This document shows, in pieces, positions 2,808 to 24,090 of a stretch of 25,365 nucleotides of DNA. The translations under genes were made by a program, and so were the position numbers. The stretch's first letter is position 1; each line of letters begins with the position of its first letter. Below the pieces are notes generated by a model that did no database searches, was not told the DNA's origin, and worked only from the letters and a program-made list of their open reading frames with translations. The DNA is from a virus, in the IMG/VR virus record IMGVR_UViG_3300027704_000142, positions 1 through 25,365 of that record; one strand, given 5' to 3'.

Positions 2808-3400
2808 TGTCTATCAACAACGTAGCTGCATTTCAAGGTTGGAATAGTTCCGTACAAGGTTGGAACACGGGAACTTGGAATACGAACGTAGCTTATTCGG
2901 TTACTGCTACAGGTAGTGTTGGTGCTGTAACAGGTATTACATCTATAAGTGTTTCTGTTACAGGGGTTGCAGGAACATCTGCGTTAGGTAATATATTTTC
3001 TACAAATGTAGGAGTGAGTGCAACAGGAGGTGTTGGTTCTACAACCGTTGTTGGTCTTGCTAATGTTTCTGTTACAGGAGTTGCAGGGACCTCTGCAGTT
3101 GGTTCTACAACCGTTGTTGGTCTTGCTAATGTTTCTGTTACAGGGGTTGCAGGAACATCTGCATTAGGTAGTTTCTTTACCACAAATACAATGGTAACGA
3201 TGACCGCTTCTGTAAACAGTGCGACGGCAGAGACTGTTGGCGAGGCAAACATAGAAGTAACAGGAGTAAGCGCAACTGGGCTAGTGACCGCTATAACGGA
3301 CTTTCCTGTAGTTTGGGGGCAGATTATACCTAGTCAAACCCCCAATTTTAGTGCAATATCACCTAATCAAGATCCTTCTTGGACAGACGTAGCAGCATAG
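2807..3400 (+). CDS. Repetitive VTGVAG-type surface or structural protein
   Basis: 197 residues, almost free of charge and made mainly of Val, Thr, Gly, Ser and Ala. The N-terminus has three Trp-containing motifs (GWNSS, GWNTGTW). Residues from about 30 to 155 hold repeated beta units based on SVTGVAGTSALG; two of them are exact 22-residue tandem copies. The C-terminal part returns to a Trp/Pro-rich composition (VVWGQIIPSQTPNF, DPSWTDV). The composition suggests stacked beta-strands or a fibre shaft. It is placed directly before the tail fibre gene, with a 12-bp gap that carries the next gene's ribosome binding site (AGAGG). It could be a fibre base or tail appendage; this is inferred from composition and position. 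Confidence 0.55.
   Translation: MSINNVAAFQGWNSSVQGWNTGTWNTNVAYSVTATGSVGAVTGITSISVSVTGVAGTSALGNIFSTNVGVSATGGVGSTTVVGLANVSVTGVAGTSAVGSTTVVGLANVSVTGVAGTSALGSFFTTNTMVTMTASVNSATAETVGEANIEVTGVSATGLVTAITDFPVVWGQIIPSQTPNFSAISPNQDPSWTDVAA
3032..3163 (+). repeat. 66-bp in-frame tandem duplication
   Basis: Two adjacent 66-bp copies, 3032-3097 and 3098-3163, code for the same 22 residues (VGSTTVVGLANV then SVTGVAGTSA). They differ only at a few positions near their ends (ggagttgcagggacctct against ggggttgcaggaacatct). More diverged VTGVAGTSALG units flank them on both sides. The near identity points to a recent duplication or to exchange between copies. Confidence 0.9.
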
Positions 3401-15484: not shown

Positions 15485-15734
15485 ACTTTAAGTGTTCCTC
15501 TATCTCTTCGAACGTTTGTCTCCAAGTAAAGATAGGGGTGGTCTCGCCCATGTACGAACCGATAGTATTAAACTCAAGGTACTCTACAGCGTCATCATAT
15601 TCCATATCATCTCTCTCCATAAGTATCTCAACACATTTATTCGCGTCATAAACTAGTACGTCAACGCTTCCGCTTTCTGCCCACTTCAGTCCTGTGCCTA
15701 TTACGGCTTCGTCAAATCCATCTGCTTTCAACAT
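15462..15734 (-). CDS. Small conserved acidic phage protein of unknown function
   Basis: 90 residues. The segment LKADGFDEAVIGTGLKWAES, then VLVYDANKCVEILMERDDM and YDDAVEYLEFNTIGSYMGE, resembles a small protein widespread in phages and some bacteria (pattern: DGFD.A..G, VYD..KCI..L, AVEY..FN..G..(V/M)GE.TP.F). No function is known to me. It starts on the last base of the polymerase stop (TAATG) and is the last gene of the replication operon. Its final 23 bases overlap the 3' end of the giant + strand virion gene. It may assist replication, since it travels with the polymerase here. Confidence 0.75.
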   Translation of the reverse strand: MLKADGFDEAVIGTGLKWAESGSVDVLVYDANKCVEILMERDDMEYDDAVEYLEFNTIGSYMGETTPIFTWRQTFEEIEEHLKSIDESTD

Positions 15735-17635
15735 TATCCTACTTCTCCCCAGTTGTCCCCAAGTTCCTCGTCCACTTTGGATGGAACCTTGAGTATGTGA
15801 TCTAGTCCTGTTTCCATTATCTTTGTAATCTTATCCGCTTGCTCCTGACTTTCTACAGAGAAACACAATTCGTCATGGACAGTAAGCATAGGCACGAGGC
15901 CCTCGTCATAACAGTCCTTCATTGCTTTCTTTGTTTGATCCGCAGCAGATCCCTGGATAAGTTTATTCAAAGCCTTGTATGTAAACGCCCTTCGTAAATT
16001 CATGCCATGAACTTTCTTTGCTTCTTCCAAAGACAGAGGTTTATTATACTCGTAACTTCTTGGCTCCCACAAATGAAACCTACACTTCCTACCAAGCAGG
16101 GTACGAATAGTGCCATGCACTTGTGCTTGTTGACTAGCAAGATCCGCCAATCCTTTTACAAACGGAACCTTAGTGTGATGCACATCAAGAAGATCCTTTG
16201 CTTCTGCATGTGGGATTGATAACTGGTTGGCAAGCTTTGCCTTACCCATGCCGTACATGATACCAAGGTTCACGGTCTTCGCTTCTTTCCTTGTTATTCC
16301 TGCAAAGTCTGCCACCATTTGATGCAAATCCACATCGCCCTTGTGATACTCCTCAACAATACTGTCAATCATATCATGACGTTGTGCTACGTTCGAGGGT
16401 AGGCTTGCCGCAAAGTGCACCAAGAGCCTCGGTTCTTGGCTCGAGTAATCAAATGATCCCCACTTGGTTCCTTCTTCCGGGATAAACAATCCTCTGATCA
16501 TCTTCTTTATATCGGGATCACGAGCTGGGATCTGCTGTAGATTGGGATTGGAAGAAGAGAACCTTCCTGTAACCGTGCCCCCATCATCTGAACGAAGTTG
16601 ATGAAATTCTGTGTGTATCCTACCCTTGTGATTGTGGCGAAGGATTGTTTCAATAAACGTACCGTCTGCCTTGTCAAACTCTCGAAGCTTAACCAATGCC
16701 TGGCACACTTCATGAGGATGTGCTGTAAGATACTGCTTGGTGAATGACGGAGATCCAGCCTCGGTCATCGGGTGCTTTAGGTTCAACGCATCAAACATTA
16801 ACTTAACAGATGCCCCAGCCCACGGATCAACGTCCACTCCAGACTTGTCCTTAATAAACTTACGCAACTGTTTGGTTCTAACATTCAGATCCTTCTTAAC
16901 TCTTTCCGCCTGATCAAGATCTACACGAACTCCCTTGGTTCTCATGTCGAGCATTAGAGGAATGAGGGAAGTCTCGAGATCAAAGATGCCCCAGAGATCC
17001 TGCTTATCAAGCTCGATCTTTAGCCTGTCCCATAGCTTCAAGGTCATGACGGCATCTTGCTCGGCATACTTTCCCACGAACTTAGGAGGCAGCTTCCACA
17101 TGTCAGCCTTTGGATCAAGACCCCAATCCTTGGCGGCATCCCTTAATGTCTTCTCGTCTTTCCGCATATCGATATAGTCTCGACCCACGTTATTAAGACT
17201 GTAAGAAAACCTATTCTCGTCAATGACAGGAGCCGCAACCATCGTATCGATGATCCGCCCTTGGACCTCGATCCCCTCTGCTCTGAGCCATCCTGCATCA
17301 TAGGTTGCGTTGTGCATAATCTTATCTATATGAGGAGTTTGCATCTGGATCTTCAGCCATTTCATCGTGACCTTTGGATCTAGGTTGTGCCCATTCTCGT
17401 GACGAATAGGAAAGTATCCTGAGTAATCCCCAGCAGCTACAGCTATACCAACTATGTAGCCATCGTTTCGTGCCCACCCTGGCCCAAGGGTCATGATGTT
17501 TGGATCTCTTGTTTCAAGATCCACGGCTATTTGTTTATGCTTTGTTAGATCAGGATACTCTGTTGGTATGTTCCAATCAGGATCTATAAGTTCAAAGAAA
17601 TTAATGGTACTCTTATCATGTCTACTCCTTACCAT
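15734..17635 (-). CDS. DNA polymerase family A with 3'-5' exonuclease domain
   Basis: 633 residues from the ATG at 17635; GGGAGG lies 8 bases upstream. An in-frame ATG at 17671 would add 12 residues inside the preceding gene and is less likely. Exonuclease motifs: Asp39/Glu41 (AVDLETRD), HNATYDAGWL with Asp113, and Tyr190/Asp194 (KYAEQDAV). Polymerase motif A is SFDYSSQEPRLL (Asp396, Glu401), motif B (O-helix) is RKEAKTVNLGIMYGM (Arg449, Lys453, Leu457, Tyr461), and motif C is VHDE (His587, Asp588, Glu589). There is no 5' nuclease domain, as is usual for phage PolA. Leu457 aligns with Phe762 of E. coli Pol I. No CxxCxGxG (DnaJ-like) insert is present. It overlaps the upstream DUF6378-like gene by 14 bases and the downstream gene by one. 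It replicates the phage genome. Confidence 0.96.
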   Translation of the reverse strand: MVRSRHDKSTINFFELIDPDWNIPTEYPDLTKHKQIAVDLETRDPNIMTLGPGWARNDGYIVGIAVAAGDYSGYFPIRHENGHNLDPKVTMKWLKIQMQTPHIDKIMHNATYDAGWLRAEGIEVQGRIIDTMVAAPVIDENRFSYSLNNVGRDYIDMRKDEKTLRDAAKDWGLDPKADMWKLPPKFVGKYAEQDAVMTLKLWDRLKIELDKQDLWGIFDLETSLIPLMLDMRTKGVRVDLDQAERVKKDLNVRTKQLRKFIKDKSGVDVDPWAGASVKLMFDALNLKHPMTEAGSPSFTKQYLTAHPHEVCQALVKLREFDKADGTFIETILRHNHKGRIHTEFHQLRSDDGGTVTGRFSSSNPNLQQIPARDPDIKKMIRGLFIPEEGTKWGSFDYSSQEPRLLVHFAASLPSNVAQRHDMIDSIVEEYHKGDVDLHQMVADFAGITRKEAKTVNLGIMYGMGKAKLANQLSIPHAEAKDLLDVHHTKVPFVKGLADLASQQAQVHGTIRTLLGRKCRFHLWEPRSYEYNKPLSLEEAKKVHGMNLRRAFTYKALNKLIQGSAADQTKKAMKDCYDEGLVPMLTVHDELCFSVESQEQADKITKIMETGLDHILKVPSKVDEELGDNWGEVG

Positions 17636-17888
17636 TGTTCTCTCCTCCCAATGCGCCATACCCACAGACATCGATCCAAGAATCTGTATGTTTAGGAGTT
17701 TCTATTAAGCGACTTAACTTTACTGCAATCATACACTGATAGACCTGTGCAACTGTGACCTCCTTATCAAGAAGGACAGACCACATCTTAGCAATGCGCT
17801 CATGGTTTGTGTACGCATCACCATAGTCCTCTGCCCTTGGACCATTGATCATCTTATCTGCTTGTGCCAATACTTCTGTTCTTTTCAT
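17622..17888 (-). CDS. DUF6378-like protein
   Basis: 88 residues. The pattern ADKMINGPRAEDYGDAYTNH, then ERIAKMWSVLL, VTVAQVYQCMIAVKLSRLIETP and DSWIDVCGYGAL fits the phage domain DUF6378, as I remember it (hydrophobic helices with DYGD, ..NHERIA..W and D...D..GY). The arrangement of helices and acidic residues recalls all-alpha NTP-pyrophosphatase-like proteins, but no function is established, and the match to MazG-type enzymes is only a resemblance. It overlaps the helicase gene by ATGA and the polymerase start by 14 bases, so it is translated as part of the replication operon. Confidence 0.8.
   Translation of the reverse strand: MKRTEVLAQADKMINGPRAEDYGDAYTNHERIAKMWSVLLDKEVTVAQVYQCMIAVKLSRLIETPKHTDSWIDVCGYGALGGENNGKE
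17644..17649 (-). promoter_or_regulatory. Ribosome binding site fixing the polymerase start
   Basis: On the - strand GGGAGG stands 8 bases before the ATG at 17635. The longer reading frame from 17671 would place this sequence inside the protein, so it decides the start. Confidence 0.75.
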
Positions 17889-19408
17889 AATTCATACCTG
17901 TATTTTTTATCTGTATCCACTATGTGTAATGTCTTACGTGCTCGTGTTATGCCCACATAAAACGCTCGATGCTCATCGTCTGGGTGCTTTGTATTTATAC
18001 ATGCCCATGTAGACCCAAGATACACGACGCAATTATCATCCTCTCCACCCTTCATCGCATGAAACGTAGAGACCTTTAGCCTTGGTGGTTTTGTTATGTC
18101 CTCTCCTCTTCTTTCTAGTGCCTTAATATATAGCTTGTCATCCAAGCCAAGCTTGGCAACGTCCATAGGATCTCTTGTCTTTGGTGCTACCAAGCCATAA
18201 TCCCTTACAAGATCATCGTATCCCAGAAGGGCATCGTCTCTTGATGCTTCAAGCAATGTTGATGCTCCTCTTTTAACTACGGCAAAGTCTCCCTGTTTGG
18301 GCACCGCTTTGTAAAACTTTACAACCTGATCAAGAGGCAAGTGTTCACCCAACTGAAGCTGCTTCCAGGTGCTCATTGTTTCTGCCACGTCAGCACCGAT
18401 AGACGGATGCCCCTTGTAACTGTACAAGTATCCCTCTTCCCTAAGTATCGCCGCAAAATTTCTTGCCATCTTATTCGTTCGCGTCATCAAGGTCCACGAA
18501 CCTTGGTCCAAGGGGACACTGTCAAGGCTCATGTGAAAATGAACTTCACCCTCCTCACTTGTGGGCCTGAACTGTTTGATCTTACGCTTACTTATTTTCT
18601 TCACCACAGTTTGTGCCAGTTTGTGTACCCTTCGAGGCATACGGTAGGACTGATCCAGTATGACAACGTCGTCAGAACATTTCATAAATAAAGATACGTC
18701 TACCCCGGTCCATCTATGTATCGCCTGATCATCATCTCCTGCAAATATAACTCTCTCGGCTTTCTCTGACATGTACTCAACCATATCCCACTGCATGGGC
18801 GTTAAGTCTTGTGCCTCGTCTACAATAAGAAGATCTAAGGAGGGGGACGTGGTGGTGCTGTACATCTCTATAAGATCTGCAAAGTCCATCTTGTTTGTTT
18901 CTGCTTTATATTCTCTGAGAGTTTCATCAATCTTTTGTAGCATTGGGAAGCTTATGCTGTGATCTTCCGCCTCGTTATATTCTTGAACCAAAGGCACCCT
19001 TCTGTACCTTGATCTGGTTATGAGCTGGATATATTTACTGCCGCTACCATCAACAGGAGGAATAAGAATGCCATCGTCAGGAGAAACATTATCAACACCA
19101 TCAAACACCATGCCCAAGTTTTTACCCAGCTGTCTCCAATCGTCCTTGTTAATCATGTCCGTGGATTGCAAGCCAAGATTATGAAACGCAATCGAATGCA
19201 TCGTCTTGAAGTAAGGCAGCTCCTTCTTCTCTAACTTAAACTCTGAACACGCACGATCAACAGCTTCTCCGATAGCCTTGCGCGTGAAGGAAACAAAGCC
19301 AATCCGGCTGGGATGAATACCTTCTGCTAAAGCTTTTCTCACATGTTCGATAAGAGTATACGTCTTACCGCAACCCGGAGGGCCAAAGATCAGAGTGCTA
19401 TTCTGCAT
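17885..19408 (-). CDS. UvrD/Rep-type superfamily 1 DNA helicase
   Basis: 507 residues from the ATG at 19408, with GGAG 10 bases upstream; an earlier in-frame ATG at 19435 has no ribosome binding site. Helicase motifs in order: Walker A GPPGCGKT (Lys15), Ia-like FVSFTRKAIGEAV, Walker B LLIVDEAQD (residues 193-201), motif III FAGDDDQAIHRWTG, motif IV LDQSYRMPRRV, motif V STFHAMKGGEDDNCVVY and motif VI AFYVGITRARKTLHI. It is about 200 residues shorter than bacterial UvrD, mainly in the 1B and 2B subdomains. Such short forms are common in phages. It should move 3'-5' on ssDNA and probably opens the duplex for the phage polymerase. It overlaps the HTH gene by 11 bases. Confidence 0.93.
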   Translation of the reverse strand: MQNSTLIFGPPGCGKTYTLIEHVRKALAEGIHPSRIGFVSFTRKAIGEAVDRACSEFKLEKKELPYFKTMHSIAFHNLGLQSTDMINKDDWRQLGKNLGMVFDGVDNVSPDDGILIPPVDGSGSKYIQLITRSRYRRVPLVQEYNEAEDHSISFPMLQKIDETLREYKAETNKMDFADLIEMYSTTTSPSLDLLIVDEAQDLTPMQWDMVEYMSEKAERVIFAGDDDQAIHRWTGVDVSLFMKCSDDVVILDQSYRMPRRVHKLAQTVVKKISKRKIKQFRPTSEEGEVHFHMSLDSVPLDQGSWTLMTRTNKMARNFAAILREEGYLYSYKGHPSIGADVAETMSTWKQLQLGEHLPLDQVVKFYKAVPKQGDFAVVKRGASTLLEASRDDALLGYDDLVRDYGLVAPKTRDPMDVAKLGLDDKLYIKALERRGEDITKPPRLKVSTFHAMKGGEDDNCVVYLGSTWACINTKHPDDEHRAFYVGITRARKTLHIVDTDKKYRYEL

Positions 19409-19619
19409 CCGTCTGTACTCCACGAGGACGAGCATCGAGCCACACTTGTATCTCTTCTCGAACCCACCTACTTGCGCTACGAGTGCCGTCGTCCTGGCCT
19501 AGTATAACAGGTTGTGGAAAGCTATTGTCTTTGACGTGTTCATACACCCAAGACTTGGATACTCCAAGCCAATCGGTTACCTCCGATATTCGCAGTAAGT
19601 TCTTAGAAGGGTATTTCAT
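19398..19619 (-). CDS. AlpA/MerR-type helix-turn-helix protein
   Basis: 73 residues from the ATG at 19619, which has AGGAG 7 bases upstream; the longer frame from 19727 would overlap the primase gene by 125 bases and has no such site. The core reads LLRISEVTDWLGVSKSWVYE, then HVKDNSFPQPV and SRWVREEIQVWLD. This is the typical winged HTH of the AlpA / prophage regulator and excisionase-like family: an HTH (SEVTDWLGVSKSWVYEHV), a wing with FPQP, and the ending RW...E...W. The family binds DNA; members act as transcription regulators or recombination directionality factors. It starts within the last 17 bases of the primase gene and overlaps the helicase start by 11 bases. A regulator of early or replication genes is the likely role; an excision role would need an integrase, which is not in the window. 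Confidence 0.85.
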   Translation of the reverse strand: MKYPSKNLLRISEVTDWLGVSKSWVYEHVKDNSFPQPVILGQDDGTRSASRWVREEIQVWLDARPRGVQTDAE

Positions 19620-21132
19620 TGTTTGTCTCCTGACTAGTTTCTGTTTCTGTGTCTTCAAAGGATGGCACCCACCACACTCGTATCTGTGTCCGCTTGCCGT
19701 CTGTGTTACGAACGCTGTACCTGCCAAAGCATTCCTGTCCGTTGTTTAATTCCTTGATTTGTTCTTGGACCTGGGCCCTTGAGTACGATGTAAACCCTCG
19801 GTTCTTTAGAAAGGTCATGATGCCTACTATCGTAAACCGAGTGAGCCCCTCATCTGTCCAAGGCTTACCCATATCCATTTCCTCTGGAGCCATTGCCTTG
19901 ATACGACTTGTGCAATACGTCCGCAGTAACTCCTTAAACTGTCCAGACAATGTCAATTCTTCTGGCACCTCTAACTGCGTAGACTTATTCATCAAAGCAC
20001 TCACCATCGTCTGCCACTTCTGTGCCTTGACTGTCGGGGGCATTGTTTGGATCTGTTCCATACAGGCTCTTTGCCATAGCAACTGGTTCTGAAGTTGTTC
20101 TGTCGAGAGCTGTACTCTCCTGCCATCAACGTCCATGAAGTACAGCCGAGGCTCAGATAGCATGATGGTCAGTCCACCAAGATCGGGTGTATCAGGAGCC
20201 GAGCTCCCAACGCCAAAGGGCCGGGTCTTACAGATGTCCTTATCGCAATGATCCTTGAGCGGACAGGTGTCGCACTGGTAGAAGTATTCTTTCTTCTGCA
20301 AAGATTCTTGTATCTGTACAACTTCTTTGGCTTCGAGAGAAGGAGAGCACAAGATCCTGTTGTACTCTTCATGATGCTTCTTCCAATCGTCGGGCCACTT
20401 GTATCGGCAGTATACCCCAACAGCAAACATAAATATGTTTCGCATGTCGCTGATCGGACCAAGGCTCGACATAACTTCCAAGCAATACGGTCCATCAACA
20501 AAGTGCTTTCTCTCCCCGGCAAACTGTAGAGCATTCAACTCTGCCGCAGAGATACGCTTCTTCTTTACCGCATCAAAGAACTCAGGCAGCTCCATCGCTT
20601 CACTCTTACTATTGAAGCAGTACCGTGTGGTAAGCTCGGCATTAAAGTATGGCATGTTGATAAAGTTTCCAACGTCACCACGATCCGCAAGTATCTTGTC
20701 CTGCTTTGGAAAGATCTCACACCCAGAATGTCCAAGCGCAATAGACATCTCTGTTAGATATTCTCTAATCAAAGCCGCAGGTTCCCAATCTTTTAGAAAC
20801 AAAAACAAATGTGCACCGCCCGATTTGGATCGGCACAACAAAAGAGGGAGCTTCAACTTTGTTATCTTCTCATTTAACTTCTTTAGATCGAGATCATAAG
20901 TATCTATATCCAGTGCCCCAAACTTACACATGTTGTCCTGTGTAATAGGGATCGACCCGACACCTTGCTTTCCATCTATATGCTCTTGTATTTTCTCTGC
21001 GGTCAACGGCTCTCGGACCACGGTGCTATTAGCTTCCGTCTTTCCGTTGCGCCCAACACGGCCCACCACTGTCTGCCCATGAGCGGCACCCGACCCTTGA
21101 AATACTGCAAGCAACTGTTCTGCCTCAGACAT
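19603..21132 (-). CDS. Archaeo-eukaryotic (TOTE-type) primase
   Basis: 509 residues from the ATG at 21132, with AGGAGG 5 bases upstream; the in-frame TTG at 21147 is unlikely. The N-terminal AEP core shows catalytic motif I ALDIDTYD (Asp75, Asp77), motif II SKSGGAHLF (Ser104, His108), and the motif III region EIFPKQDKI (139-147) followed by GNFINMPYF (155-163). Near residues 281-310 there is a Cys cluster, C287-x2-C290-x5-C296-x4-C301, followed by KTRPFGVG, probably a metal-binding site. The last 200 residues are helical, with no helicase motifs. The protein ends NNEIPF, like the C-terminal tip of bacterial SSB. It makes primers for the phage polymerase. The SSB-like gene lies upstream behind a 64-bp gap with a strong hairpin, and the HTH gene overlaps its end. 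Confidence 0.85.
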   Translation of the reverse strand: MSEAEQLLAVFQGSGAAHGQTVVGRVGRNGKTEANSTVVREPLTAEKIQEHIDGKQGVGSIPITQDNMCKFGALDIDTYDLDLKKLNEKITKLKLPLLLCRSKSGGAHLFLFLKDWEPAALIREYLTEMSIALGHSGCEIFPKQDKILADRGDVGNFINMPYFNAELTTRYCFNSKSEAMELPEFFDAVKKKRISAAELNALQFAGERKHFVDGPYCLEVMSSLGPISDMRNIFMFAVGVYCRYKWPDDWKKHHEEYNRILCSPSLEAKEVVQIQESLQKKEYFYQCDTCPLKDHCDKDICKTRPFGVGSSAPDTPDLGGLTIMLSEPRLYFMDVDGRRVQLSTEQLQNQLLWQRACMEQIQTMPPTVKAQKWQTMVSALMNKSTQLEVPEELTLSGQFKELLRTYCTSRIKAMAPEEMDMGKPWTDEGLTRFTIVGIMTFLKNRGFTSYSRAQVQEQIKELNNGQECFGRYSVRNTDGKRTQIRVWWVPSFEDTETETSQETNNEIPF

Positions 21133-21152
21133 ATATTCCTCCTCCAAAGTTC

Positions 21153-21183
21153 GAGGAGAGGACGATCATAGCATCCTCTCCCC
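21153..21183 (-). promoter_or_regulatory. Strong intergenic hairpin between SSB-like and primase genes
   Basis: Arms 21155-21162 (ggagagga on +) and 21174-21181 (tcctctcc on +) are a perfect 8-bp inverted repeat with an 11-nt loop. In the - strand RNA the stem can extend by a G-U pair and a G-C pair (21153-21183). No U-tract follows on either strand, so it is not a standard terminator. It lies in the gap after the SSB-like stop codon and ends about 20 bases before the primase start codon. Confidence 0.7.
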
Positions 21184-21196
21184 AAGACAGGGTTGA

Positions 21197-21988
21197 TTAA
21201 AACGGTATTCCGTCTTGATCTGGAGAGGAGGGGGAGGGTCCTCCTTCGTCCGCCGCTGCCTTAACTTCTCCTGCCGCAATCGATTTGCGAAAGGCAATGG
21301 CTTCTTGCAATAGGTTCTTGTTATCTACCAACCCGACCTTCTCAACTTGCCAGCTGTTCCACTCACCTAGGTCATTGCTTGCATCAGTGGATGACAGTTT
21401 CCAAATGGTAGAGAACACCGCAGGAGTTACCATCTCTCCTGTCTTGGGATGCTTAACTTTCTGCATCGCAATCTGTGTCTTCCAACGACGACTAACCTTC
21501 AGCTGCGTTGACTTCATATCAATCACCGCAGGTTGGTACGACCCATCGTCCGATACAATTAAACAGAAATGTTGGTCCGACTTAACAAGTTCGTTGCTAC
21601 TTGGTAATATTTCCTTGGCTCCTTGTCTTGTCGTTTGTTGTAGGACAGGATCGTTTGCCGCGATCTCTCCTTTGAAACCACCGCCTAGATCTCGGGGTAC
21701 AAACTCCAGGTACTTTGTAGTCTGATAACAAGGAACAACCTTCAATCCCTTCTCACCTTTCCAAAGCTCTGAGGTTACGGTGTTAAAGGCATCGCCTTGT
21801 TCTGCACCTTCTATATACTCAGGCTTCTTCTTGCTGAGTTGCGGAGACATGGCCTGTATTATTCGAACAAAAGGAATCTGCATCTCTGAACTGTCAAAGC
21901 TTGCTCCCTCTCCTGCGGTACTAAAGATGTCATCCATAACATCCGTTGAAACATTTGCGCCCTTGGGCTTATCTACATCGTTCGCCAT
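21197..21988 (-). CDS. Predicted single-stranded DNA-binding protein of phage type
   Basis: 263 residues; AGGAG lies 8 bases before the ATG. After a disordered N-terminus, the body contains QIPFVRIIQAMSPQLSKK, EYIEGAEQGDAFNTVTSELW, VVPCYQTTKYLEFVPRD, IDMKSTQLKVSRRWKTQI and ending regions rich in Lys and aromatic residues, all of which suit a nucleic-acid-binding fold. It ends in a flexible acidic tail (DEGGPSPSSPDQDGIPF) whose last residues, DGIPF, resemble the DDDIPF tip of bacterial SSB. I recall this family from marine phages, beside the primase and usually unannotated. The name SSB is therefore an inference from the tail and context. It follows the coiled-coil gene without a gap. Confidence 0.75.
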   Translation of the reverse strand: MANDVDKPKGANVSTDVMDDIFSTAGEGASFDSSEMQIPFVRIIQAMSPQLSKKKPEYIEGAEQGDAFNTVTSELWKGEKGLKVVPCYQTTKYLEFVPRDLGGGFKGEIAANDPVLQQTTRQGAKEILPSSNELVKSDQHFCLIVSDDGSYQPAVIDMKSTQLKVSRRWKTQIAMQKVKHPKTGEMVTPAVFSTIWKLSSTDASNDLGEWNSWQVEKVGLVDNKNLLQEAIAFRKSIAAGEVKAAADEGGPSPSSPDQDGIPF

Positions 21989-22546
21989 TTATTTTCTCCT
22001 GATTTCAGCTGCGTTGGCAATGAATGCCCCGAACATATCGAGGTCAATTGGTTTCCCATCCGTTACTCTTTCTTTTACAAAAGCTTTTAGAGTGCTTGGA
22101 TGAATGTGTGTCTTGGCTATCGGATCAAACCCCTTGTTTCTCAGGATACCAACGACGTCTCCTGCTAGGTTGTCTTCACCTTTACTAAAGGAACAAATAA
22201 TATCATTCTTAATGATAGTATCTAGGCCCTCGGAACGTAACCAATCATACGCTTCTTCTCTCCGGCCCACAGGAATTGATGCGTGAACCATCATCTTACG
22301 CTGAACGGTAACACCGTCAACATCAAGACGATCAACGCCCATCTCATCCATAAGTGCCGGGATATTCTCCACTGATAGCTTGTGCTTTTCTTGCTTCAAA
22401 CTTTTTAAGTGAATGTCTGCGTCTTCAATCTGGCTCTCGACATCGCGAAGTTTACGTACAAGATCGCTCAGTGTCCTCCCAGTTCCAGTATCAATGTCGG
22501 ACAACGCTTGTCCTTCATCAAATAAGTCTTCGAATATTTCTGTCAT
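21989..22546 (-). CDS. Conserved phage coiled-coil replication-block protein
   Basis: 185 residues from the ATG at 22546 (GAGG 9 bases upstream; the in-frame TTG at 22582 is not supported). Residues about 24-63 form a coiled coil (SDLVRKLRDVESQIEDADIH, then LKSLKQEKHKL). The C-terminal part is a compact domain with VQRKMMVHASIPVGRREEAY, IKNDIICSFSKGEDNLAGDV and KTHIHPSTLKAFVKERV. The pattern is widely conserved in unannotated phage proteins; some resemblance to the siphovirus Gp157 type of coiled-coil protein exists but is weak. As first gene of the operon and next to the SSB-like gene, it probably serves DNA replication or recombination. Confidence 0.75.
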   Translation of the reverse strand: MTEIFEDLFDEGQALSDIDTGTGRTLSDLVRKLRDVESQIEDADIHLKSLKQEKHKLSVENIPALMDEMGVDRLDVDGVTVQRKMMVHASIPVGRREEAYDWLRSEGLDTIIKNDIICSFSKGEDNLAGDVVGILRNKGFDPIAKTHIHPSTLKAFVKERVTDGKPIDLDMFGAFIANAAEIRRK

Positions 22547-22571
22547 AAGTTTTTCCTCTTCAGAATTGTTG

Positions 22572-22600
22572 TTGACACACAAGTAGGCGTGTCGTAAAAA
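22572..22600 (+). promoter_or_regulatory. Candidate sigma70-type promoter for the SNF2 helicase
   Basis: TTGACA at 22572-22577 is a perfect -35 hexamer; a 17-bp spacer leads to TAAAAA at 22595-22600, a -10 with four of six consensus bases. The inverted repeat gacac (22574-22578) and gtgtc (22589-22593) overlaps the -35 and the spacer. The site lies in the 74-bp divergent gap between the two operons. On the opposite strand no comparable promoter for the replication operon is obvious. Confidence 0.55.
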
Positions 22601-22620: not shown

Positions 22621-24090
22621 ATGACTGTCAACTACAAATTTAAAACAAAACCATATGGACATCAAAGAACCGCATTGGACCGGTGTGGAAACAAGAAATC
22701 GTTTGGTCTGTTTATGGAGATGGGAACAGGCAAGAGTAAAGTATTGTTGGATAATCTTGGTATGTTGTTCTGTGATGGCAAGGTAAACTTTGCTCTCATC
22801 ATTGCACCCAAAGGAGTATACAGAAATTGGGTGGCAAAAGAAATACCGCAGCACATGTCGGATGATGTACCGCATCGAGTGATTCGCTGGGTCTCTTCTG
22901 CAAACAAAGCACAGAAAAAAGAAATGGCTGCCGTCAAAGAGAAGTTCAATGGTCTTACTATCTTTGTTATGAACGTCGAAGCTTTCTCTTCTGTCAAAGG
23001 TAAGACGGCAGGGGAATGGTTGGCAAAGCATTATGGTTGGCATGGTATGATAGTCGTGGACGAATCAACCGCAATAAAAAATCACAAAGCCAAAAGAACC
23101 AAGACACTTCTTAAAGTCTCAGAGAATTTTACATACACTCGTATTCTTACTGGGTCACCTGTAACCAACTCGCCTCTTGATATCTATGCACAGACTGACT
23201 TCCTATCGCCCGGTCTCTTGGGTTATGATTCGTTCTATGCATTCCAGGGACGGTACGCTGTACTGCAAAAAGTAAAGATGGGGGCCCATGCTTTCACACA
23301 GGTCCTCGGCTATCGGAACTTGGATGAACTTACAGAGCGACTAGAAAGGTTTTCCTATCGCGTACTAAAGAAGGACTGCTTGGATCTTCCTGAGAAAACA
23401 TACACCTCTCGGTACGTCAGTCTTACGGATCAGCAAAAAAGTTGGTACAATAAGATACAACGTGAAGCTATGATCCTGCTCGAGGACGGCGATCTCGTTA
23501 CAGCACCGGCGATCATAACTCAGATGCTACGACTGCAACAAATACTATCAGGTCATATTAAGTCTGACGATGGTGTGATGCACACGTTTCCCACCAAAAG
23601 AACGGCGGCCTTGATGGAGATACTTGATGAGCACAGTGGCAAGTCAATCATCTGGTCTCGATTTCGACACGACATCATCCACATAACAAAGGAACTCAAT
23701 GCAAAGTTTGGGCAAGGATCTGCCGCAGCTTACTTTGGTGATACGTCCGACGATGTTCGTAATGATATCATCACACAGTTTCAAGATCCAAACTCCAAAC
23801 TTAAATATTTTGTGGGCAATCCATCTACGGCAGGGTATGGTCTAACTCTAACAGAAGCAGACCTTGTTGTGTATTACACAAACGACTTTAACCTAGCTAC
23901 TCGTATGCAAAGTGAAGACCGTGCCCATAGAATAGGACAGCTCAAGCCTGTAACATACGTCGATCTAATTTGTGATGGAACAATAGACGAAAAGATTGTT
24001 GGAGCATTGCAAAATAAAATAGAAATTAGTGCCAAGGTATTAGGAGAAGAGGTAAAGCAATGGTTAAGTCTAAGCCCGAGCCTGATCTAA
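22621..24090 (+). CDS. SNF2-family (superfamily 2) helicase
   Basis: 489 residues; GGGAG lies 6 bases upstream. Motifs in order: Q-motif-like KPYGHQRTAL (Gln15), Walker A MEMGTGKS (residues 32-39), motif Ia ALIIAPKGVYRNW, motif II VVDESTAIKN (Asp147-Glu148), motif III LTGSP (176-180), motif IV region SIIWSRFRHDI, motif V GNPSTAGYGLTLT and motif VI QSEDRAHRIGQ (430-440). This is a typical phage SNF2-like enzyme, with no accessory domains. Such proteins are ATP-driven DNA translocases; in phages they are usually replication or recombination factors. It is divergent from the replication operon, so early expression from the shared control region is likely. The end overlaps the next gene by 31 bases. 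Confidence 0.92.
   Translation: MTVNYKFKTKPYGHQRTALDRCGNKKSFGLFMEMGTGKSKVLLDNLGMLFCDGKVNFALIIAPKGVYRNWVAKEIPQHMSDDVPHRVIRWVSSANKAQKKEMAAVKEKFNGLTIFVMNVEAFSSVKGKTAGEWLAKHYGWHGMIVVDESTAIKNHKAKRTKTLLKVSENFTYTRILTGSPVTNSPLDIYAQTDFLSPGLLGYDSFYAFQGRYAVLQKVKMGAHAFTQVLGYRNLDELTERLERFSYRVLKKDCLDLPEKTYTSRYVSLTDQQKSWYNKIQREAMILLEDGDLVTAPAIITQMLRLQQILSGHIKSDDGVMHTFPTKRTAALMEILDEHSGKSIIWSRFRHDIIHITKELNAKFGQGSAAAYFGDTSDDVRNDIITQFQDPNSKLKYFVGNPSTAGYGLTLTEADLVVYYTNDFNLATRMQSEDRAHRIGQLKPVTYVDLICDGTIDEKIVGALQNKIEISAKVLGEEVKQWLSLSPSLI

Follow-up and report, generated by a model that had tools for sequence, protein, structure and literature searches.

The archaeo-eukaryotic-type primase and the gp34-like protein, a presumed SSB, that are encoded in a viral replication module both end in a short peptide resembling the C-terminal tip of bacterial SSB, and the sharing of this tip, which hundreds of related phages retain on both proteins, is real and beyond chance. 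The most likely reading, which we favor with restrained confidence, is that both tips fit a single pocket on some third part of the phage replisome and that primase and presumed SSB exchange there. Each protein would then consist of its folded part followed by a disordered linker and an SSB-Ct-type docking peptide, made up of one or more acidic residues, Ile or Val, Pro, and a Phe that bears the terminal carboxylate.

Genomic setting

The stretch of DNA analyzed here, referred to as the window, is a virus record of 25,365 bases. Its replication module is carried on the reverse strand in the order gp33-like protein (DUF7307), gp34-like protein (Pam3_Gp34), AEP-TOTE primase, AlpA-like HTH protein, UvrD-like helicase, DUF6378 protein and PolA, and the gene for an SNF2 helicase lies on the opposite strand (Table 1). 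The genes around the primase, SSB-like, UvrD and PolA genes among them, are those of an ordinary module for phage replication. At the start of the window (positions 3-242), a short reading frame consists of five near-identical MKMGGKVKPKG repeats.

The match of the primase to PF22548 is above the cut-off, and the catalytic motifs of the AEP family (DxD and SxH-type) are represented by D75/D77 and H108, which are invariant across 35 diverse homologues. The ATG at position 21132 is a better start for the primase than the TTG at position 21147, since it is where every aligned homologue begins.

Table 1. Features of the replication region of the window and their positions
Feature	Position	Strand	Evidence and remarks
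gp34-like protein, 263 aa, presumed phage SSB	21197..21988	-	PF23977 Pam3_Gp34 E=2e-66; phrog_2402; ends ...SSPDQDGIPF
gp34-like C-terminal tail, predicted disordered, residues 247-263	21200..21250	-	AF2; tip IPF 21200-21208
Archaeo-eukaryotic-type primase, 509 aa	19603..21132	-	PF22548 AEP-TOTE E=6e-17; phrog_21866 primase E=1e-81; ends ...SQETNNEIPF
Primase C-terminal tail, predicted disordered, residues 495-509	19606..19650	-	AF2; tip EIPF 19606-19617
AlpA-like HTH gene	19398..19619	-	PF05930 E=1e-8; ATG 19617-19619 overlaps primase tip in another frame
UvrD-like helicase, candidate partner	17885..19435	-	PF00580; own C-terminus without IPF tip
PolA-family DNA polymerase, candidate receptor by analogy with T7 gp5	15734..17671	-	PF00476
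gp33-like protein adjoining the gp34-like gene, candidate partner	21989..22582	-	PF23984
SNF2-type helicase, replication region	22621..24090	+	PF00176

Conservation and predicted disorder of the tips

A preliminary description of this DNA had read the primase as ending in TNNEIPF and the gp34-like protein, there called SSB-like, as ending in DQDGIPF, and had likened both to the SSB tip. All of this is borne out, with the tails directly preceding the stop codons of the primase (19603-19605) and the gp34-like protein (21197-21199). Relatives of the two proteins were taken from viral contigs and counted as distinct closed reading frames. Among the window-like relatives, both families conserve the tip: (I/V)PF ends 104 of 107 distinct primases, and IPF ends 104 of 106 distinct gp34-like proteins. 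In each of the five remaining sequences (L115, L051 and L039 for the primase; L009 and L035 for the gp34-like protein), the reading frame stops or is lost upstream of the tail. Most of the tips read (D/E)(I/V)PF; in the gp34-like protein of the window, a Gly precedes IPF and the sequence D-Q-D is found further upstream.

The tip is restricted to these two proteins of the module. By the same measure, it was found in 0 of 383 distinct relatives of five other neighboring families (AlpA, 0/71; UvrD-like helicase, 0/97; PolA, 0/49; gp33-like protein, 0/98; SNF2, 0/68). Other frames of at least 150 amino acids carry the tip in 15 of 2,857 cases, and those tip-bearing frames that were listed with an acidic-residue filter are mostly unpaired copies of the primase or the gp34-like protein. 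The UvrD-like helicase (17885-19435) has a conserved C-terminus of its own in the lineage of the window, mostly of the form (K/R)YRYx(L/I/V).

The remainder of the primase tail is variable among relatives and the tip is constant, as is typical of short interaction motifs. Disorder is predicted for both tails. The AF2 model of the primase is well folded and residues 495-509 are the only segment with a pLDDT below 50, and in the model of the gp34-like protein the core is confident and residues 247-263 have a pLDDT below 50.

Tips in more distant lineages

The survey was extended to named phages and to additional searches of contigs. Among these distant phages, the tips differ from one lineage to another and tend to match within a genome. 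In the clade of DSL-LC04 the tips are of the form SPF/xPF and match within the genome, in the 023Pt clade they are E(N/H)F or EDF together with (S/A)TPY, and in the HTVC027P clade they are NIV together with (Q/E)DIV, the complete HTVC027P-like pairs being xIV/DIV and likewise matching. The tips of Kokobel2, AEF/SEF, match as well (its primase gave no matches when searched against viral contigs), and the clade found with MW202510 has mostly F or Y endings on both proteins. Not all pairs conform; DIPF, for example, is paired with ARRR in L514. Relatives of the gp34-like protein in other replication modules are often aromatic-ended, as in PB1 (AEEF), Hera (AEQF), ECML-117 (AEEF) and Ab18 (KAPF).

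The preliminary description had held that homologous primases lacking the tip would refute its reading. Such primases do occur in the distant Nanhaivirus and HTVC023P-like phages, but not in the window's own lineage. In the HTVC023P clade and Nanhaivirus, the gp34-like protein bears a VPF, IPF or TPF tip and the primase has none, so the idea that the tip is universal across the AEP family is rejected, and the retention of the gp34-side tip alone indicates that not every lineage requires a tip on the primase. Among the primases without the tip is that of Dinoroseobacter phage R5C. The primases of the HTVC023P clade (L166:1361-2926; L410-L479) end instead in a strongly conserved MDD(D/E)(F/Y)HTGKFRT, which in HTVC023P runs into the start of the helicase gene that follows and could be an extended, modified tip or a consequence of constraint from the helicase.

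The two tips of a genome resemble each other more closely than shuffled tips do (p=0.004, 0.013, 0.040 and 0.007 when primases are clustered at 60, 50, 45 and 40%, respectively). The mutual information between the two tips, computed with seven tip classes that were picked after the data were seen, exceeds that expected from independent evolution on the primase tree, with 0 of 300 simulations as high at three clustering levels. This result depends on how the tips are classed, as the link between the gp34-like protein (SSB) and the primase is not significant with coarse last-residue classes (p=0.32). The covariation statistics are graded as suggestive only because a control that compared the helicase C-terminus with the primase tip was also nominally significant (p=0.013).

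Identity of the gp34-like protein

The label "SSB-like" given in the preliminary description is drawn from genomic context and not from resemblance to SSB in sequence or fold. Its sole Pfam match is PF23977, with no match to an SSB family. The canonical SSB domain PF00436 was not found in 17 long relatives, which makes the gp34-like protein the natural SSB candidate, and it is on this context that we presume it to be an SSB. In the AF2 model its core has the order strand-strand-strand-helix-strand-strand, which is compatible with an OB barrel. An OB fold is not claimed, since Foldseek of the model against the PDB gave nothing at E<=0.001, hmmsearch against PDB chains gave nothing significant and hhalign gave no significant match to T7 gp2.5. 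A weak structural match to PfWMP4_22 of a T7-like cyanophage was set aside; that protein ends in ASTVM and is without the tip.

In phages VP2 and Bm1, the gp34-like protein is accompanied by another, small protein that is annotated as SSB and tailed DDDIPF. These small proteins (VP2, L694:6759-7235; Bm1, L696:1851-2243) have no Pfam SSB match and are encoded directly downstream of the gp34-like gene. Their tails are nearly identical to that of bacterial SSB, the VP2 tail being EPPMDFDDDIPF, as in E. coli, and the VP2 gp34-like protein itself ends in DFPDEM. Two families to which no function is assigned, phrog_2544 and phrog_4477, appear to share only the SSB-like tail, as their last ~22 residues match the tail of the small VP2 SSB.

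Proposed exchange on a shared pocket

If the tips are binding peptides, the two would dock on the same pocket of the PolA polymerase, the UvrD-like helicase, the gp33-like protein or the core of the gp34-like protein, and the primase and the presumed SSB would compete and exchange there. Exchange would bring the primase to the single-stranded DNA of the fork and then hand off, much as the gp4 and gp2.5 tails do around T7 polymerase. The acidic tails of T7 gp4 bind basic patches on T7 polymerase (PMC12593628), and the gp2.5 tail has been implicated in binding both the polymerase and the primase-helicase (PMC5686142). In both T7 and the window's lineage, the SSB (if the gp34-like protein is one) and the priming enzyme of one phage share an acidic, Phe-ended tail, and the polymerase belongs to the PolA family. 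The systems differ in that the priming enzyme is the TOPRIM-helicase gp4 in T7 and an AEP primase here, the presumed SSB belongs to the Pam3_Gp34 family, which is unrelated to gp2.5, and the T7 tips are of the -DF type (DGDF in gp2.5, DTDF in gp4) rather than the IPF type.

The phage tips share with bacterial SSB-Ct (DDDIPF) acidic residues followed by an Ile-Pro-Phe C-terminus after a disordered linker. They have fewer acidic residues, however, vary by lineage (SPF, TPY, NIV), and occur on proteins without a PF00436 domain, one of which is a primase. A search of the open-access literature found no report of an SSB-type tip on a primase of the AEP-TOTE family, though such absence is not proven. 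Grafting SSBc onto PriB enables PriB to stimulate PriA (PMC8509808), and such tails are therefore portable. The tip of the phage HK620 SSB, NDYPPF, is needed by the phage partner Sak4 (PMC5928155), and thus an xPF-type tip on a phage SSB can be read by a phage-encoded partner, as proposed here, although the HK620 pair acts in recombination rather than priming and the tip is described on the SSB alone.

The nature of the receptor bears on a second possibility, that both tips imitate the DDDIPF of host SSB and dock on host SSB partners, with the clamp-loader chi subunit, PriA, RecO and ExoI as candidates, thereby recruiting these enzymes or displacing host SSB. This is unlikely, even though the (D/E)(I/V)PF tips of the window's lineage are near-identical to those of bacterial SSBs and the additional small SSBs of VP2 and Bm1 have fully host-like tails. 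HTVC027P-like phages, a cultured member of which infects Pelagibacter, have NIV/DIV on both proteins, yet SSB ends in DD(D/E)IPF in 7 of 7 Pelagibacter genomes read. Other lineages have -EF, -TPY or -SPF, and both T7 proteins bear -DF tips in a host whose SSB ends in DDDIPF. Since such tips are unlike that of the host yet like each other, a phage-encoded receptor is favored, and comparison of the endings suggests that the shared pocket is probably encoded by the phage. The competition for one pocket envisaged in the preliminary description survives as the best reading, that of a shared and hence competitive docking site, but the host pocket, one of the targets that it considered, is not supported as stated.

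By analogy with T7 gp5, PolA is a candidate for the phage receptor. PolA is 25% identical to gp5 over the polymerase domain. The front basic patch of gp5 is not evident in PolA, in an alignment that is poor, and other basic stretches are present; the thioredoxin-binding insertion is likewise not evident, in a region where the thioredoxin-binding domain of gp5 is aligned unreliably.

Quite improbable, in our estimation, is binding of the primase tip to the gp34-like protein itself, in which the tip would mimic the tail of that protein folded on its DNA-binding cleft and bring the primase onto SSB-coated single-stranded DNA. Such binding would account for the likeness of the tips within a genome, the genes are adjacent, and competition between the gp2.5 tail and single-stranded DNA for one surface is indicated for T7 by the title of Marintcheva et al. 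2008 (cited in PMC5686142), but the lineages with a tipless primase are left unexplained.

Overlap of the primase tip with the AlpA-like gene

The ATG of the AlpA-like gene lies inside the primase tail, with its first base at position 19619, which is -16 from the last base of the primase stop codon. This offset recurs in 62 of 75 distinct loci and is -19 or -13 in 9 more. The double constraint on the tail codons proposed in the preliminary description is correct as to the overlap, but the constraint is lopsided, as the third bases of the Ile/Val and Pro codons vary freely. In 63 distinct tails from the window's lineage, the Pro codon is CCC in 30, CCA in 15, CCG in 11 and CCT in 7, and the third base of the Ile/Val codon varies as well, with the protein tip fixed. 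These third-base changes alter AlpA residues 3 and 4 and leave the primase unaltered, and the N-termini of AlpA among relatives are of forms such as M-[TK]-[SYF]-[PHRL]-S. The Phe codon of the primase, which corresponds to AlpA Ser5, is TTC in 63 of 63, and xAT, which supplies the AlpA ATG, predominates as the codon that precedes the acidic residue. From the AlpA side, only the ATG (mostly xAT-G) and Ser5 look constrained. Since the third bases vary despite the overlap, selection acts on the primase tip.

A primase ending that has no function as a tip and arises only from the start of the AlpA-like gene is scarcely credible. In favor of this view, AlpA starts within the tip in most relatives, and both the fixed TTC codon and the xAT-G pattern suit a constraint from AlpA. 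The overlap is nevertheless rejected as the sole cause because the free third bases change AlpA residues 3 and 4, the primase of phage 023Pt ends at 3346, with the next gene starting from 3470, and yet keeps an acidic-aromatic tip (...IENF), and the gp34-like tip has no such overlap.

Significance

The principle of a tail shared by SSB and priming enzyme is already known from T7, and what is new here is its occurrence on unrelated protein families and with a tip of the SSB-Ct type. We tentatively suggest, as a possibility that we would not yet call probable, that T7 (with its TOPRIM gp4) and the AEP phages independently reached the same wiring of SSB and primase by tips, that tip and pocket, the latter private to the phage, change in concert, and that the lineage tips (IPF, SPF, NIV, EF) are thereby kept apart from the DDDIPF of the host. 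The lineage-specific tips are natural swaps with which phage and host pockets can be compared.

The proposal provides two widespread and little-characterized families with a specific role that can be tested, namely the AEP-TOTE phage primases and Pam3_Gp34/phrog_2402, the latter of which has no assigned function and is present in hundreds of isolated phages, and it predicts the wiring of replisomes of this kind. Exchange of SSB and primase by tail competition would no longer be specific to T7 if the two tips do bind at a single site.
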